Source: Bacteroidota bacterium
Lineage (GTDB): Bacteria; Bacteroidota; Bacteroidia; UKL13-3
DNA: 64,000 bases
Reading direction: 5' to 3'
Assembly: GCA_947457395.1 (NCBI GenBank)
Contig: CANGVA010000014.1
Location: forward strand, 1 to 64,000
Made by a program: the position numbers and the translations under genes. How positions within the stretch are numbered: position 1 is the first letter of the stretch; every line of letters begins with the position of its first letter. Below are positions 1 to 37,245 of this stretch, piece by piece. The notes beneath the pieces are model-generated. The model was not told where the DNA came from. It saw only the letters and a program-made list of their open reading frames with translations, and ran no database searches.

Positions 1-51
1 GGGTGGAATATGGTCCCGATGGCAAGCATCGGGATCGAACCCATGGCTCAT
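1..51 (-). pseudogene. tRNA-His 3' fragment with a palindrome in the T-loop
   Basis: On the minus strand this matches the T-arm and acceptor 3' strand of the intact tRNA-His at 185-260, ending in the same TATTCCACCC. The three T-loop/stem bases GTC are replaced by a 21-nt palindrome at 14-34 of the form TCCCGATG-N5-CATCGGGA. The 5' half, including the anticodon arm, is absent. It cannot form a normal tRNA, so it is called a fragment. Confidence 0.75.
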
Positions 52-58
52 CAAAATT

Positions 59-92
59 AAAAAGCCACTCCATGGAATTGGAGCGGCTTTTT
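59..92 (-). terminator. Hairpin terminator, copy 1
   Basis: An A-run, a stem of AAAAAGCC-A-CTCCA pairing with TGGAG-C-GGCTTTTT, and a T-run on either strand. The shape fits a bidirectional intrinsic terminator. It is a duplicate of the hairpin at 151-184, with one base change in the loop. Confidence 0.8.
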
Positions 93-143
93 GGGTGGAA
101 TATGGTCCCGATGGCAAGCATCGGGATCGAACCCATGGCTCAT
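93..143 (-). pseudogene. tRNA-His 3' fragment with a palindrome in the T-loop, second copy
   Basis: Identical in sequence to the fragment at 1-51. The palindrome lies at 106-126. It is located downstream, in the direction of tRNA transcription, of the terminator at 151-184, so it would be transcribed only by read-through. Confidence 0.75.
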
Positions 144-150
144 CAAAATT

Positions 151-184
151 AAAAAGCCACTCCATAGAATTGGAGCGGCTTTTT
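151..184 (-). terminator. Hairpin terminator directly after tRNA-His
   Basis: The stem-loop with flanking A and T runs begins one base after the 3' end of the tRNA-His on the minus strand (tRNA ends at 185). The position and U-tract fit intrinsic termination of the tRNA transcript. Confidence 0.85.
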
Positions 185-260
185 GGGTGGAATATGGGAC
201 TCGAACCCACGACCCCCTGAACCACAATCAGGTGCTCTAACCAGCTGAGCTAAAACCACC
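185..260 (-). tRNA. tRNA-His (anticodon GTG), acceptor stem with two mismatches
   Basis: A cloverleaf folds on the minus strand. The D-arm begins GCTC, the anticodon loop is TTGTGGT (anticodon GTG) on a CCTGA/TCAGG stem, and the T-arm is GTGGG-TTCGAGT-CCCAT. The extra G at position -1 (base 260) opposite discriminator C73 (base 186) is the tRNA-His hallmark. The 3' CCA is not encoded. Acceptor pairs 5:68 (bases 255/191) and 6:67 (254/192) are both U-U mismatches, as if the 5' and 3' halves came from different tRNA copies. This is the only complete tRNA seen in the window; whether it works is uncertain. Confidence 0.85.
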
Positions 261-267
261 GTGTTTT

Positions 268-317
268 GGTGCTCTAACCTCCCGATTGCGAAGCTATCGG
301 GATGAGCTGAAACCACC
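268..317 (-). pseudogene. tRNA-His 5' fragment with a palindrome in the D-loop
   Basis: On the minus strand the fragment starts GGTGGTTTCAGCTCA, matching the 5' end of the neighbouring tRNA-His, and ends GGTTAGAGCACC, matching its D-arm 3' part. The three D-loop bases GCT of the intact gene are replaced by a 23-nt palindrome at 280-302 of the form TCCCGAT-N9-ATCGGGA. The remainder of the tRNA is missing. Confidence 0.75.
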
Positions 318-3346: not shown

Positions 3347-4714
3347 ATGCCGGGCTTTTTAGAATCCAGATTAAACCGATTTAATAGTTTGCAGACTTTT
3401 CAGTTTCTGCGCTATGGAGCCATTTTGCTTATTTCCGTGCTATTGGCAAAGATTACACATTATGCCTATGAGAGTCCCGGATATGGTTTACTCATCATTA
3501 GCCGTTATGAGCTTTTGCTGCTGGTTAGCTCAAGTCTAACTTTTTTCTGGGTTTCCAGTATATGCAATACACTTATTCCATTTTATAATGGTAGTGATGA
3601 AGAACAACAAAAGCGCATTTTGTTTAATGCTTTTGTTATTCTGGTGGCACTTTCGGCTGTAGGTGCCATTGCCATGTTTGCCTTTGGCAGCATCAAATAC
3701 AGTGAAAACGACCTGTTTCACACCAAGGATTTATTTCACACATTTTCTCTGGTGGTTTTTTTAAACACACCCACCTACATAGCAGATTATATTCTTTACC
3801 TGAAAGGGAAATACAAATCACTTATCATTTGGGGAGTAGTAACATTTGGCCTGCAGGTAGTATTACTTTGCCTGCCGTTGCTTATGGGCCAAACACTTAA
3901 TCTGGCCATTAACTTATGGGTTATTTTATCACTGCTTAAATTTAATTACACCATCATTTTACTGATGAAATATTCCATTATAAGTGTGCACACCAGACTT
4001 ATTTTGGATTTCATGAAAAAGGTAATGCCTTTTATGTTTTCCATTTTACTGGCGGGCAGTATGGATTATATCAGCAGTTATATTGTTTCAAACTATTATA
4101 CCGAGGCAGAGTTCGTAATATTCAGATATGGTGCCAAAGAGCTACCTGTGTTTCTTATTCTGGCAAACTCACTCAGCAATGTTTTTAGCGGTGAAATTGC
4201 TAAACTCAATCAGGAAGGCAAACTGGAAGAAGGATTAAGAAAGCTTAAAAGTTCATCAACCAAACTCATGCGCAGAACTTTTCCTGCTACGATTGTACTC
4301 ATGTTTGTTAGTCCTTTCCTTTTCCGATACATGTACAGTGAACAGTTTGTTGAAGGCTATAAGGTATTTAATATTTACCTCCTGCTTATCATCTCTCGCA
4401 TGGTATTTCCGCAAACAGTGATTATGGGCATCATGAAAAACAGGATTTTTTATGTGATTTCATCAAACTATATCATCATTAATGTTTTGCTCTCCTTCTG
4501 GTTTATGTATTTATTCGGCATTTATGGAATAGCCTATGCCACAGCCATTGCTTTTCTGGCTGAGAAACTGATGTATGCCATTTACTGCAAGATGGAGGGC
4601 ATTCGTTACCAGGAGTATACTGCCTTGTATGAACATCTGTTTTTTTCAGCCCTTACTGTATTGGCCTATTTTGCCTCCATGTGGCTGTGGAATACCTATC
4701 CGCTCGTTTCCTAA
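3347..4714 (+). CDS. Polysaccharide flippase-like membrane protein (MATE/MOP superfamily)
   Basis: A 455-residue, strongly hydrophobic protein with about twelve predicted membrane segments and no signal peptide. The pattern of helices separated by short basic loops resembles lipopolysaccharide or O-antigen flippases (Wzx/RfbX-type) of the MOP exporter superfamily, which move lipid-linked sugars across the inner membrane. No catalytic motif is diagnostic. No glycosyltransferases adjoin it, so the substrate is unknown. It precedes the cystathionine beta-synthase gene by 27 bp on the same strand and could share its transcript. Confidence 0.7.
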   Translation: MPGFLESRLNRFNSLQTFQFLRYGAILLISVLLAKITHYAYESPGYGLLIISRYELLLLVSSSLTFFWVSSICNTLIPFYNGSDEEQQKRILFNAFVILVALSAVGAIAMFAFGSIKYSENDLFHTKDLFHTFSLVVFLNTPTYIADYILYLKGKYKSLIIWGVVTFGLQVVLLCLPLLMGQTLNLAINLWVILSLLKFNYTIILLMKYSIISVHTRLILDFMKKVMPFMFSILLAGSMDYISSYIVSNYYTEAEFVIFRYGAKELPVFLILANSLSNVFSGEIAKLNQEGKLEEGLRKLKSSSTKLMRRTFPATIVLMFVSPFLFRYMYSEQFVEGYKVFNIYLLLIISRMVFPQTVIMGIMKNRIFYVISSNYIIINVLLSFWFMYLFGIYGIAYATAIAFLAEKLMYAIYCKMEGIRYQEYTALYEHLFFSALTVLAYFASMWLWNTYPLVS

Positions 4715-13641: not shown

Positions 13642-14970
13642 ATGAAAAACTTATTTACACTAATTGCCATTTGTTCGCTTAATGTTTTACATGCCCAATA
13701 CACTTGGGTTAATGTAGCATCGGCACCATACAATGCTTCAAAGCAGGATGGTGTTTTTTTTATCAATAAAGATACCGGATGGGTAGTGAATGGTTCGGGA
13801 GCCATACATAAAACCATAAATGGCGGTAATAGCTGGATACAACAAAAAAACAGCCCCGGCACCTATTTCAGAGCTATTGCATTTGTTAATGATCAGATAG
13901 GGTTTGCAGGAAATGTTGGTACCAATTATTTCCCAAATGTAACCGATGCCAATCCGCTATATAAGACCATTGACGGGGGTAACAGCTGGGCTCAAATCAC
14001 CTCCTCCATCAGCGGTGCTGTTCCTGATGGTATTTGTGCCATACAGGCTGTAAATGCCAATGTTATTTATGCAGCTGGCAGGGTTGGTGGGCCGCCTGTT
14101 ATCATAAAAAGTACTGATGGCGGCACAACATGGGTAGGCAAAAACTTATCGTCACAATGCGAGATGATACTCGATATTTATTTCCATTCAAAAGACACAG
14201 GGTATGTATTTGCCGGAACAAGTGCAGATATAACTGTTGCATCTGCAAGAATTTTGAGAACAACAGACGGAGGACAAAACTGGACTCCAGTTTTTACATC
14301 GAACAGACCATTTGAAATTACATGGAAAGCCTGGTTTCCTTCACACCAAGTTGGTTATGCCACTATACAAAGTTATAATAGTAGCACTTCTCAGCGATAT
14401 ATTGTAAAAACAACCGATGGTGGATTAACATGGAATGAACTGCCACTGGTAAATAATGGTACAAGAGAATTTGGAATTGGCTTTATTAATGATAGCGTTG
14501 GCTGGGTAGGCGGTGAAAACAGTGGATATCAAACTATAAATGGTGGCCTTACATGGTCTTCCGTTAATTTAGGTCAATATGCAAATAAATTCACTATTGT
14601 TAAAAATAGAGATGGTAGCTCTACAGCTTATGCAATAGGATTGCGATTATTCAAAATGTCTACGGGTATAGCTTCCGGATTAAATGAAGAAAAAAATGAA
14701 ATAAAAGGCGTATTGGCTCATCCAAATCCTGCAACATCAGGAGGCTATATATCCATTTCATTAGAAAGCATTAAAACAAGGATTGTCAAGGCAGAGTTGA
14801 TTTCAATAGATGGGAAAAGTACCTATCCTTTGTTTAAAGGATATTATCCGGGCACACATGAGTCACCATTTATGCTGCAACTACCCAATATTTCTACGGG
14901 TAATTACATTATTCAGTTTACTGACGATGGTGGTGCTCTCTTTAAACAGAAACTTGTTATCATTAACTAA
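13642..14970 (+). CDS. T9SS-exported Ycf48-like beta-propeller protein
   Basis: A 442-residue protein. The start at 13642 gives a signal peptide ending LHAQ. The body is a run of BNR/Ycf48-type blades, with the repeated theme of a TDGGxTW or NGGNSW turn (KTINGGNSW, KTIDGGNSW, KSTDGGTTW, RTTDGGQNW, KTTDGGLTW). The last about 80 residues form a T9SS sorting domain starting AHPNPATSGGY, so surface or secreted location is inferred. The propeller is clearly homologous to the C-terminal half of the next protein; for example both contain FAG-VGT-YFPNVTD. The two genes are 21 bp apart and probably cotranscribed. Function is unknown. Confidence 0.85.
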   Translation: MKNLFTLIAICSLNVLHAQYTWVNVASAPYNASKQDGVFFINKDTGWVVNGSGAIHKTINGGNSWIQQKNSPGTYFRAIAFVNDQIGFAGNVGTNYFPNVTDANPLYKTIDGGNSWAQITSSISGAVPDGICAIQAVNANVIYAAGRVGGPPVIIKSTDGGTTWVGKNLSSQCEMILDIYFHSKDTGYVFAGTSADITVASARILRTTDGGQNWTPVFTSNRPFEITWKAWFPSHQVGYATIQSYNSSTSQRYIVKTTDGGLTWNELPLVNNGTREFGIGFINDSVGWVGGENSGYQTINGGLTWSSVNLGQYANKFTIVKNRDGSSTAYAIGLRLFKMSTGIASGLNEEKNEIKGVLAHPNPATSGGYISISLESIKTRIVKAELISIDGKSTYPLFKGYYPGTHESPFMLQLPNISTGNYIIQFTDDGGALFKQKLVIIN

Positions 14971-14991
14971 TACTCAAAGCACATATTAATC

Positions 14992-17367
14992 ATGAATAGT
15001 AGAATTTCATTTTATTTACTAGTAATATTCTTATTTAGCGGCATTCATGGCGCACAAAGCCAGCAACTAAACCGCAGACCGTTTTTAGGTGCAAGATTAA
15101 ACCCCATTCAGACAGAAAGCTTTAGCGGTTGTGAAGTGTTACAGATAACCGGAGGAACCGCAGCCAACCTTAAACTGAAAGAAAAAGATGTTATAATAAA
15201 GATAGGCGATGCTGCCATTCATACACCAAATGATCTGGGTGATATATTTAAAACATACGAAACAGGACAAAATATTAAGTTAACGGTGCTGAGGGATAAG
15301 AAGCAAATCATACTAAAAGCCCAAATAGTTGGTCGTCCGTTTGAAACGGATGATAATGCAGAAGTCATATATGAGCAGGCTGCGTATAAAGATGGTCAGC
15401 TACGTGTTATTATTAACAAACCGTTTATTCGTAACAAAATGCCTGCCATGCTATTTATACCCGGGTACACCTGCAGCAGTATTGATGATTTAAAAAACAA
15501 TCATCCCTATAAAAGAATTATTGATGCATTTGTAGATGCGGGATATGTTACACTTCGCGTTGAAAAAAGTGGACTAGGCGACAGCAGAAACACACCAGCT
15601 TGTGAATCCTGTGATTTAATAGATGAAGTTGAAAATTTTGAAGTGGGCTTGAAGAAATTAAAGTCATTGCCATATGTAGATACCAATCAAATCATCATTG
15701 TTGGTCATTCAATGGGTGGGATAATTGCTCCTGCTATAAGCGCCAAACATAAAGTTGCAGGTGTTGTGGTATATGGCACAACTGCTAAATCCTGGTTTGA
15801 ATATCAACTGGAAATGTACCGCTTACAAAACGCATTAGCCGGAATGAATCCGATTGAAGTGGAAAAATCAGTAGTTGATCAATATGACTTAAACTACCGG
15901 TACTTCGTAAAAAAGGAGAAACTGGAAGACATGGCAAAGGACCCTAAGGCAGATAGTATTTTTAGAACAATTTGGGAGTATGATGGTAACGGGAAGATTT
16001 ACTCAAGAAATGCGGAATATTGGCGTCAGATACAAGACTACCCTCACTTAGAGAACTGGAAAAATACAACTGCTAAGGTATTGGTTCAGTTTGGCGAGTC
16101 AGACTTTCAGGCATTTTCCAAAGCAGATCATGAACAAATCGTTAATACGGTGAACCATTTTAACCAGGGAAATGCAACATTAAAAACATATCCGCATACA
16201 GATCATTTTTTCGCCAAATCAGGAACCATGCAGGAGGCGTATAATAAATTTGCCGAAGGAAAATACCAGCAACTATTTAATGAATATAACCCGGAAGTGG
16301 GCTTATCTGCTGTGAGATGGAGTAATGAAATTCTAGGACATAAAGATGAGGATAAACTTTCTAAAAAAGGATGGCAAAAATTGAATACGGAAAGCTACCC
16401 TGGAAAACAAGATGATATTACATTCATCAACGAACTTGAAGGCTGGTACGTTAATGGATACGGCAAAATCTATCACACAACCGATGGGGGCGAAACGTGG
16501 GAAATGCAGTTAGAAAAGAAAGGTACATTTTTTAGATGCATAGCATTCGTTGATAGGTTGAATGGATTTGCAGGAACAGTTGGTACAGACTATTTTCCAA
16601 ACGTAACCGATACCATTCCGCTTTATAAAACAAATAATGGCGGTAAAACATGGACACCTGTTGCGTATTCGGGATCTTATGTAAAAGGATTGTGTGCGTT
16701 GGATATTGTAAAGGAACAGTACATTAATCAAGGTAAAATAGATTACAAAATACACATCTTTGGTGTTGGCCGCGTTGGAAGCCCTGCTAATATGATGGTA
16801 TCACACGATGGGGGCGCAACTTGGACTTCAAAAAGCATGAATAAGGATTGTAAGATGTTGTTTGACATTAAAATGTTTGACAAGAACAACGGAATTGTTT
16901 GTGCTGCCTCGGATGAAGACATTGAAAAATCAAATGCGCTCATCTTAAAAACAAGCGATGGCGGTAAAACCTGGAAAAAAGTGTATCAATCCAATCGGCC
17001 ATTTGAAGGCACCTGGAAAGCATCCTTCCCTACAGATAAAATTGGGTACGTCACCATTCAATCATACAATCCTGACCCAAATGTAAAACAGCAGCGCATA
17101 GCAAAAACAATAGATGGCGGAAACTCATGGCAGGAAATAAACTTAGTAGAAGATGCCACTGCACGCCAATTTGGTATTGGCTTTATTAATGTAAATCATG
17201 GATTTGTAGGAACCATGAACTCCGGCTACGAAACTACTGATGGTGGTAAGACCTGGAAACCAATAAATATGGGAATGGCTTGTAATAAAATTAGAATCTA
17301 CAAAAATGCAAAAGGGGAAGTTTATGGATATGCCATAGGTGTAGATGTAATGAAATATGATTTTTAG
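14992..17367 (+). CDS. PDZ + alpha/beta hydrolase + Ycf48-like propeller fusion protein
   Basis: A 791-residue exported protein with three parts. After a signal peptide ending AQSQ, residues about 30-115 are a PDZ domain. Residues about 130-440 are an alpha/beta hydrolase with nucleophile Ser240 in GHSMGG, likely acid Asp371 (GESDF) and His405 (TDHFF). Residues about 455-791 are a Ycf48-like propeller with TDGGETW-type turns. No T9SS sorting domain follows the propeller, unlike the preceding protein. The first two parts are paralogous to the next gene and the third to the previous gene. It is probably a peptidase or esterase with a binding propeller; the substrate is unknown. Confidence 0.85.
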   Translation: MNSRISFYLLVIFLFSGIHGAQSQQLNRRPFLGARLNPIQTESFSGCEVLQITGGTAANLKLKEKDVIIKIGDAAIHTPNDLGDIFKTYETGQNIKLTVLRDKKQIILKAQIVGRPFETDDNAEVIYEQAAYKDGQLRVIINKPFIRNKMPAMLFIPGYTCSSIDDLKNNHPYKRIIDAFVDAGYVTLRVEKSGLGDSRNTPACESCDLIDEVENFEVGLKKLKSLPYVDTNQIIIVGHSMGGIIAPAISAKHKVAGVVVYGTTAKSWFEYQLEMYRLQNALAGMNPIEVEKSVVDQYDLNYRYFVKKEKLEDMAKDPKADSIFRTIWEYDGNGKIYSRNAEYWRQIQDYPHLENWKNTTAKVLVQFGESDFQAFSKADHEQIVNTVNHFNQGNATLKTYPHTDHFFAKSGTMQEAYNKFAEGKYQQLFNEYNPEVGLSAVRWSNEILGHKDEDKLSKKGWQKLNTESYPGKQDDITFINELEGWYVNGYGKIYHTTDGGETWEMQLEKKGTFFRCIAFVDRLNGFAGTVGTDYFPNVTDTIPLYKTNNGGKTWTPVAYSGSYVKGLCALDIVKEQYINQGKIDYKIHIFGVGRVGSPANMMVSHDGGATWTSKSMNKDCKMLFDIKMFDKNNGIVCAASDEDIEKSNALILKTSDGGKTWKKVYQSNRPFEGTWKASFPTDKIGYVTIQSYNPDPNVKQQRIAKTIDGGNSWQEINLVEDATARQFGIGFINVNHGFVGTMNSGYETTDGGKTWKPINMGMACNKIRIYKNAKGEVYGYAIGVDVMKYDF

Positions 17368-18830: not shown

Positions 18831-18977
18831 ATGAATCAAATCTATAGTGACTTTAAAAAACTAATAAAAACCCATTGGGAAACAATTTTGCTTATACTCC
18901 TCATTTCAGTAATATTCATATCATCTAATTATACAGATATAAAAGCAGGTATTATAGATGCTTGGTTAGGGAAATAA
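18831..18977 (+). CDS. Small single-pass membrane peptide, 48 residues
   Basis: The reading frame is MNQIYSDFKK..., with a hydrophobic segment LLILLISVIFI at residues 21-30 and a conserved-looking tail KAGIIDAWLGK before the TAA. It begins 46 bp after the hydrolase stop. A second, damaged copy exists at 27500-27642, and most of the differences between the copies are at silent or conservative positions. This supports a real gene. Its function is unknown; a small membrane regulator or toxin-like peptide is possible but unproven. Confidence 0.6.
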   Translation: MNQIYSDFKKLIKTHWETILLILLISVIFISSNYTDIKAGIIDAWLGK

Positions 18978-19095
18978 ACACTGAATCTTAGATTAAGCTA
19001 TTCGAAATTGTGAAGTGCCATTATAAAGATACCAAATGCACGTCGACTAATTATTGATCTAGAAAGTAGCCCTAAAAATCGGACTGGATAAAAAT

Positions 19096-27478: not shown

Positions 27479-27499
27479 TTAAACAAATAGATTCATCCA

Positions 27500-27642
27500 T
27501 CAAATCTATAGTGACCTTAAAAAACTTATAAAAACCCATTGGGAAACAATTTTAATTATACTCCTTATTTCAGTAATGTTTATATCATCTAATGATACAG
27601 ACAGTAAAGCAGGTATTTATAGATACTTGGTTAGGGAAGTAA
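27500..27642 (+). pseudogene. Decayed second copy of the 48-residue membrane peptide
   Basis: The sequence from TCAAATCTATAGTGAC to TTAGGGAAGTAA matches 18836-18977 closely. The start codon is lost (the ATGA is replaced by TTCATCCA) and an extra T at about 27616 shifts the frame before the GIIDAWLGK end. This shows the small ORF has been duplicated 8.7 kb away and one copy decayed. Confidence 0.7.
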
Positions 27643-28248
27643 ATGACGTACCTGCTAGCGCCTAAATTATTGTTTAATTTTTATTACAAAGTTATAATCC
27701 AACTGTACACCAAACAAATCAAGCACTATCGCTTTATTTGGTGCACAGAAGTGCTTTATCTGCTTGATAAGTCTATTAAGAGTTTACTTTAAAGCTTTAA
27801 GAACGAGCAAAACGCAATATTACTTTGCGTAAAGGCTTAATAAAAACTTAATTTAACAAAATTTTAATTTTTGTTACTATTATTGCTTATGTCCCTCAAA
27901 TTAATAACCAAAACATGTCAAGTTTCATAGCTTCATGCATTTTCATTTTCATTGTAATTTATATTAGCTATAATTTTTATATGAATATAACATGGCTCAA
28001 ATAACTGGCATACATCCAAGCAAGAATAGAATATCGGTTTTTATGTTAAAGGCTATAGCACATTTAACGGCTGCTATACAAATAACCGGTTACCTTACAG
28101 TAGCAGGAGTAAAACAGCCAGTGGCTGTTTCAAATCTACACAATAAATCATTGCTTATGCAGAAAGGACATAAAAACTTACTCCCCTTCCTTTTCATGAG
28201 TAAATCACGTAGTTCCAATTTACAAAGCACATCTGAATAGCGTAAATT
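27643..28248. other. AT-rich intergenic region with nested inverted repeats
   Basis: No convincing gene. An open frame at 27992-28240 (82 residues) has no recognisable domain. A compact structured stretch at 27704-27764 holds three overlapping inverted repeats: TGTACACCAAA/TTTGGTGCACA, AAGCACT/AGTGCTT and ATCAAGCA/TGCTTGAT. This could be an RNA structure or the trace of a lost element. The promoter of the amidotransferase is presumably further right. Confidence 0.4.
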
Positions 28249-36834: not shown

Positions 36835-36957
36835 AACACAAACCATTCAGCAACGAAACAAGTAGCAGGGATAAATGAATGACCGGGTTCAACAGAATAT
36901 AGTCAACCTTTATCACGTTGCTTTTTGTCCCGAAAGCTCATGATGAAATTGCTAAGT

Positions 36958-37145
36958 GGCAGGTCTTCTGACTTACTTCCGATAACTCCGGTCTTCCCAT
37001 ACACTATCTGTACAGTGACAAAGATTGGAGCTTACGTTTACACCCTTGGGTGATGAAGCTTACAGCAGCGGGTACTGTTCAGGATTTTCACCTGATTCCC
37101 TTTTAATCCCTTACTGATTGATTCAATCAATCAGTGAGGAACCAT
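36958..37145 (-). promoter_or_regulatory. Cobalamin riboswitch
   Basis: Read on the minus strand, the conserved core is GGGAATCAGGTGAAAATCC, then ACAGTACCCGCTGCTGTAAG, and the B12 box GTCAGAAGACCTGCC ends the element near 36958. A strong peripheral hairpin (CTGATTGATT / AATCAATCAG) lies at 37114-37134. It sits about 120 bases before the TonB receptor start, so binding of a cobalamin would lower expression of the B12 operon. The exact boundaries are approximate. Confidence 0.96.
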
Positions 37146-37245
37146 TTAACGGTGTCAAAAATAAAATAAAAATTAGATTTGTATAACCCTGGTTCAACAA
37201 TTTTATTAACAGCCTGATTTTGATAAACGAAAAATAACGAAAAGC

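Follow-up and report, generated by a model that had tools for sequence, protein, structure and literature searches.

The window analysed here, i.e., the whole stretch of 64,000 nucleotides from the start of contig C14 of a 2.54-Mb Bacteroidota genome, carries near its beginning an intact tRNA-His gene with anticodon GTG (positions 185–259, minus strand; ARAGORN; Rfam RF00005, 58.6 bits), the candidate target and host gene of the element discussed below. On the minus strand, to which all features of the locus belong, the order is putative promoter, 5′ piece of tRNA-His, spacer, tRNA-His, terminator and two 92-bp units. A putative −7 box, TACATTTG, of the Bacteroidota TAnnTTTG type (331–338) was recognized by sequence upstream of the 5′ fragment (268–317), which would hence fall within the pre-tRNA leader. 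From sequence and tRNA register, this fragment consists of tRNA nucleotides 1–14 (303–317), a hairpin palindrome found by palindrome scan, hereafter P, with the sequence TCCCGATAGCTTCGCAATCGGGA (280–302), and the 3′ part of the D-arm (268–279). It folds into a single closed hairpin (z −5.6), and the sister genome carries a matching unit. A 7-nt spacer (261–267) lies between the fragment and the intact gene.

Behind the tRNA follows its intrinsic terminator, a stem-loop and then a T-run (151–184), which is conserved in the sister genome. Next come a first 3′ fragment of tRNA-His (93–137) with P TCCCGATGCTTGCCATCGGGA (106–126), a duplicated terminator (59–92; tandem repeat D3) and a second 3′ fragment (1–45) with P at 14–34, the fragments again assigned by sequence and register and P by palindrome scan. 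Each 92-bp unit comprises the tRNA 3′ piece with P, the terminator and a spacer; both together span 1–184, and 1–92 and 93–184 form a tandem repeat of 99% identity, tRNA terminator included. The array carries on at the end of contig C32 with four further 92-bp units. A GIY-YIG gene is absent from the tRNA-His locus.

An earlier note on this DNA had described the intact tRNA-His as surrounded by three fragments of itself, each with a short palindrome in place of three loop bases. The palindromes lie where the note had placed them, with three matches to TCCCGAT-N2–14-ATCGGGA in the window and none in 100 dinucleotide shuffles. In tRNA-His register, P replaces GTC in the T-loop of both 3′ fragments (junction 59|63) and GCT in the D-loop of the 5′ fragment (14|18), as claimed. 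The intact tRNA also stood up to ARAGORN, but the two T-loop fragments are one tandem repeat and hence not independent.

Hairpin-interrupted tRNA copies in two genomes

This genome has at least 14 loci of this kind, the tRNA-His locus among them. We read the stretches around tRNAs, P and GIY-YIG matches, and compared them with a sister genome of the same genus (G001, a Sphingobacteriales MAG, JAJTFA01). As self-fragments we counted at least 12 nt shared on the same strand within 400 nt of a tRNA, with other tRNAs masked. Such fragments were found at 14 of 35 tRNAs compared with 0.53 expected from swapped pairs, and at 12 of 33 tRNAs in the sister genome (0.5 expected); on the opposite strand, this genome had none. 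Chance matches between tRNAs are rejected by these swapped-pair and opposite-strand controls. Flanked by hairpin-bearing self-fragments were the tRNAs Lys, Gly-TCC, Arg-CCT, Asn, Leu-TAG, Leu-CAG, Leu-GAG, Pro-TGG, Ala-GGC, His, Phe, Met, Glu, Asp and Val. Upstream of the tRNA lie 5′ pieces, and downstream of it 3′ pieces or, at Leu-GAG, near-full-length copies.

A hairpin was present in each self-fragment read in both genomes, i.e., no tRNA fragment without P was found among them. The hairpin ends are mostly YCCCGA..TCGGGR. Simple P is one short stem; composite P is a double hairpin with a CGAG..CTCG centre, and its two adjacent hairpins resemble, by form alone, the double-hairpin elements of Allomyces. 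The 5′ copy of tRNA-Ala in this genome holds P twice, once in the D-loop and once exactly in the stead of the 17-nt anticodon arm.

Preference of the palindrome for tRNA loops, as suggested earlier, was borne out genome-wide: about 27 of the 40 TCCCGA..TCGGGA sites fall in tRNA fragments, and a search for the arms placed most of the remaining sites in integron attC-like hairpins or terminators. Randomly scattered palindromes are rejected by the dinucleotide shuffles, the genome-wide site locations and the self-fragment controls. Cassette arrays with TCCCGAT palindromes in attC-like sites occur on contigs C6, C18 and C19. The TCCCGAT..ATCGGGA hairpin lies in attC-looking cassette sites of locus L018 (~997–1014 and ~3698–3715), in attC-like hairpins of L022 (386–403, 1164–1179, 3116–3133 and 5718–5735) and in an attC-like site of L209 at the end of C19, with no nuclease nearby in any of the three. 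P may therefore predate the element proposed below, or be independent of it. In the tRNA units, no attC features were found by eye.

Precise filled and empty sites, envisaged in the earlier note, are present between the two sister genomes. A 5′ unit at tRNA-Pro is present in this genome and absent in G001, and so is a 3′ unit at tRNA-Met. Conversely, a 5′ unit at tRNA-Phe is absent here and present in G001, where the D-loop holds the insert and the leader and tRNA on its two sides are seamless. From these sequence comparisons, whole units appear to be inserted within a tRNA arm with the tRNA reconstituted, which would fit gain or loss alike; at the Met site, direct repeats could simply have recombined out. 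Copy numbers differ between both genomes at His, Leu-GAG, Ala and Phe, and arrays of such units form the ends of several contigs in this genome. On the overlapping ends of contigs C10/C7, the 5′ unit of tRNA-Leu-GAG occurs in four copies (L019, 700–1264) and in two (L020, 1194–1354), which may reflect polymorphism within the sampled population, or assembly.

Two earlier ideas did not survive this comparison. Rather than a free-standing palindrome jumping into loops, P belongs to a larger unit that also holds a partial tRNA copy, and the contrast drawn with simple duplication fails because all cases include a duplicated part of the tRNA.

GIY-YIG nuclease genes beside tRNAs

Apart from UvrC, five small GIY-YIG matches were found in this genome. 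The genes at tRNA-Asp, Ala, Leu-CAA and Val start immediately after the tRNA terminator; the fifth match is a contig-end relative of the Leu-CAA gene. At the Asp and Ala loci, the ORF leads straight into a T-arm interrupted by P and a 3′ end, both from the same tRNA. The complete form of the unit includes this gene as well, so P is not the stand-alone element of the earlier note. Complete units read are ~360 bp long and hold the GIY-YIG ORF alone; no integrase is present in them, unlike in integrase-driven tRNA-targeting islands. Tandem nuclease units also occur, three of them at 358 bp. In another genome (G107, contig C34, 6991–9757), at least eight tandem GIY-YIG units have ~364-bp spacing, with 22 matches genome-wide.

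The nuclease has ~80 amino acids and is domain-only (PF01541, 59 bits), with the catalytic Y, YIG, R and E conserved and a predicted fold of pLDDT 96. Similarity was highest to 1zg2 (E 1.6e-15), followed by SLX1 (4e-8) and I-TevI (8e-4). Foldseek gave the same order, with UPF0213 and Slx1 as best structural matches, i.e., similarity to the UPF0213/SLX1 family exceeds that to other GIY-YIG groups in sequence and fold, and extends to size and catalytic residues. The UPF0213-like member inspected in Listeria, in contrast, lies between housekeeping methyltransferase genes and not at a tRNA; neither of the two phage and plasmid hits inspected (Listeria, Rhizobium phage) has an annotated tRNA beside it. 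Phage and plasmid matches stayed below 46% identity and a scan of viral contigs confirmed no relatives, on which ground a phage or plasmid origin is rejected.

A protein-only search of 84,980 species genomes returned 52 loci spread over Bacteroidota, Ignavibacteria, Calditrichota, Chlorobiota and two Patescibacteria. Their general layout is intact tRNA, small GIY-YIG gene and a copy of the same tRNA with P, or the mirror order, where P replaces the D-loop, the anticodon arm or the T-arm of the copy. In most loci with enough flank, the nuclease gene lies 3–106 bp behind or before a same-strand tRNA, and on the other side of the ORF is the P-interrupted partial copy of that tRNA. Of 44 loci, 34 had P no farther than 330 bp from the nuclease gene, compared with 5 of 229 control windows. 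In a second sample, a profile search of 118 Bacteroidota genomes, 75 had matches (up to 22 each), with a tRNA within 160 bp in 19 of 26 loci. Of the inspected loci there that escaped the strict P pattern, most also contained an interrupted copy of the tRNA, often with slightly different hairpins such as TCCGATTTTTAATCGGA or TCCCGCCTAAAGGCGGGA. A phylum scan for a D-stem followed by P gave ~50 sites in 27 of 296 genomes compared with 2 control sites; a general D-arm insertion pattern returned mostly noise outside this genus. Relatives of the tRNA-side gene adjoin RNase P RNA (L282, 976–1475; second sample) and tmRNA (L181, 3373–3760), hence other structured RNA genes may be targets.

ORF and tRNA copies share the strand of the intact tRNA. 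P sites in register with the neighbouring tRNA (n = 89, partly drawn by a pattern favouring the anticodon class) fall into three position classes, i.e., D-loop (13/14|17/18), whole anticodon arm (27/28|45/46, with variants) and T-arm (54–59|55–64). On a tree of 46 nucleases, built from a short alignment to which near-copies contribute, we counted 22 changes of tRNA isotype compared with 33.5 after shuffling (0/200), the isotype labels of L168, L170 and L185 being interrupted copies that ARAGORN read as tRNAs. Coupling of clade and target is clearest in the Asp group, which unites Eudoraea, Algoriphagus, Saprospiraceae and this genus. P type changes 4 times on the tree compared with 9.4 after shuffling (0/500) for unambiguous labels only, and 3 times compared with 12 (0/500) with a few labels set by hand. 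Interrupted tRNA copies are also an annotation hazard, as some are called as tRNAs with wrong anticodons: ARAGORN did so for anticodon-arm-P copies in L170, L185 and L249, e.g., calling Lys-TTT inside a Val copy.

A proposed tRNA-invading element and its alternatives

We propose, with a probability of roughly 0.6, that the window fragments derive from a tRNA-invading, homing-like GIY-YIG element, lack its ORF and were amplified in tandem; for the element itself we infer cleavage, mobility and the role of P. As the window locus has no GIY-YIG gene, its presumed descent from a nuclease-bearing form is drawn by analogy with the tRNA-Asp, Ala and Val loci of the same genome.

The complete element would consist of a small SLX1/UPF0213-type GIY-YIG gene and a mimic of the target tRNA (L-P-R), in which P stands in place of the presumed cut site in the D-, anticodon- or T-arm. 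The nuclease would cut the cognate tRNA gene in the very arm that P replaces, and the L and R sequences of the element would provide the homology for repair. A single exchange between this donor and the chromosomal tRNA (L-b-R) would then yield pseudo-tRNA, nuclease and intact tRNA when it occurs left of P, or intact tRNA, nuclease and pseudo-tRNA when it occurs right of P. With an exchange on either side, the essential tRNA would always be rebuilt. One donor and one exchange would thus account for strand, side, seamless tRNA and P position, and P would be a natural marker of the nuclease cut site. P may protect the mimic both from cutting and from serving as a tRNA. Cutting together with unequal exchange within the repeats would let ORF-less arrays grow and shrink. 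A point against this model is that the rebuilt intact tRNA should still hold the cut site; self-immunity may come from flanking sequence, DNA structure or low expression.

Alternatively, P itself could be the recognition end of the element. The SLX1-like nuclease would then act on hairpin or cruciform DNA of P and of tRNA arms, and would move P units in trans, much as RAYTs mobilise REPs. A fold nearest to UPF0213/Slx1, and not to I-TevI, leaves room for such structure-specific action on P; moreover, the arms TCCCGA/TCGGGA hardly vary between tRNA types or between phyla, Patescibacteria and Ignavibacteria included, and the nuclease clade predicts the P type. We nonetheless regard this as unlikely, since the choice of target tracks the tRNA isotype, P at tRNA loci is embedded in target-tRNA sequence that a P-only mechanism would not need, and the arms have drifted at some loci (TCCGAT, TCCCGCC).

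Another possible origin is that tRNA ends were duplicated in tandem in the ordinary way, through replication slippage or unequal recombination, and that the hairpin then entered the redundant copy; the GIY-YIG genes would be mere passengers of the same hot spot. Such an origin would agree with the tandem arrays, with the differing tRNA-Leu copy number on contigs C10/C7 and with the Met site, where one repeat may have been lost. But it would leave unexplained why fragments lacking P or lying on the opposite strand were not found, why P positions are fixed, why nuclease clade and target tRNA are coupled, and why, in dozens of unrelated genomes, an intact and an interrupted copy flank a nuclease gene, so we give this explanation little credence.

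Still less probable is that the fragments are kept for a function, as decoys against tRNA-cutting toxins or defence or as leader and trailer hairpins that steer pre-tRNA folding or processing. The closed hairpin formed by the 5′ fragment in the apparent pre-tRNA leader would suit such a role, and phage SegB amplification of tRNA loci escapes tRNA-cutting defence (PMC13096335). However, presence and copy number vary between sister species at the same tRNA, downstream copies sit behind terminators, and most of the tRNA is missing from 5′ fragments. The link to a REP-associated transposase made in the earlier note is hardly credible: P is indeed a short palindrome in hairpin loops of tRNA arms and attC-like sites, but the sister genome has the same elements and no Y1 (RAYT) transposase, the two Y1 genes of this genome lie on contigs without P, and P has no constant tetranucleotide tag beside it, on which grounds we reject a RAYT/REP origin.

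Returning to the homing-like GIY-YIG element, its wider reading is more tentative and, in our estimate, falls somewhat short of even odds: a new class of very small mobile elements of structured-RNA genes, each made of a domain-only, SLX1-like GIY-YIG nuclease and a mimic interrupted by a hairpin. Such an element would insert in tRNA genes (perhaps also in those for tmRNA and RNase P RNA), restore its target every time and give rise to arrays that lack the nuclease and are moved in trans; the class would occur in most Bacteroidota genera and have reached other phyla. If true, the multicopy small GIY-YIG genes of Bacteroidota would be parasites of essential tRNA genes that repair what they break, and would represent a hairpin-based marking of a cut site.

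Known systems and other features of the window

Gene hybrids made by mobile ORFs are known from fungal mitochondria (Allomyces atp6; Glomus atp6, atp9, cox2 and nad3). There, an endonuclease ORF, GIY-YIG in one Glomus case, lies behind the host gene, whose 3′ end is replaced by an element-borne copy while the old 3′ end persists downstream as a remnant (PMC3630166). The architecture of endonuclease ORF, duplicated target part and remnant is alike, and the present elements, if the proposal is true, would be the bacterial counterpart of these endonuclease-built hybrids. As in homing elements and gene hybrids, the catalytic motif is intact and the gene lies at its target with a duplicated part and a remnant; as in homing endonucleases, the nuclease lineage tracks the target across hosts (22 compared with 33.5 changes). 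In contrast to the fungal hybrids, the targets are bacterial tRNA genes (with tmRNA and RNase P RNA as further neighbours), both 5′ and mirror 3′ forms occur, a conserved hairpin interrupts the remnant, and tandem arrays without the ORF are frequent. There is a realistic chance that the element merits a class of its own beyond such hybrids.

SegB of T4-like phages is likewise a GIY-YIG nuclease adjoining tRNA genes, and its cutting leads to tandem amplification via recombination (PMC13096335). Unlike SegB, the genes found here are chromosomal, domain-only (~80 aa), nearest to UPF0213/SLX1, spaced 3–106 bp from the tRNA and accompanied by the P-interrupted mimic. REP/RAYT and Rickettsia palindromic elements share with P the short palindromes, some of them in structured RNA genes; the present element, however, has no need of Y1 and no constant tag, and at tRNAs P never occurs without a partial copy of the tRNA beside it. 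No constant tetranucleotide (GTAG/CGTC) adjoins P, which is flanked by whichever tRNA arm is interrupted. In open-access PMC text we found no description of bacterial GIY-YIG genes accompanied by tRNA copies that a hairpin interrupts, and the hairpin-interrupted fragments look like remains of a widespread, apparently undescribed family of tiny bacterial elements.

Elsewhere in the window, a cobalamin riboswitch lies at 36941–37161 on the minus strand (Rfam RF00174, 97.5 bits). A 28-nt repeat occurs seven times at 13810–17257, apparently encodes DGG-type motifs and resembles beta-propeller (BNR/Ycf48-like) repeats. Two ~140-bp stretches (18835–18978 and 27499–27643), 8.7 kb apart and ~91% identical, possibly encode a shared C-terminal sorting domain.
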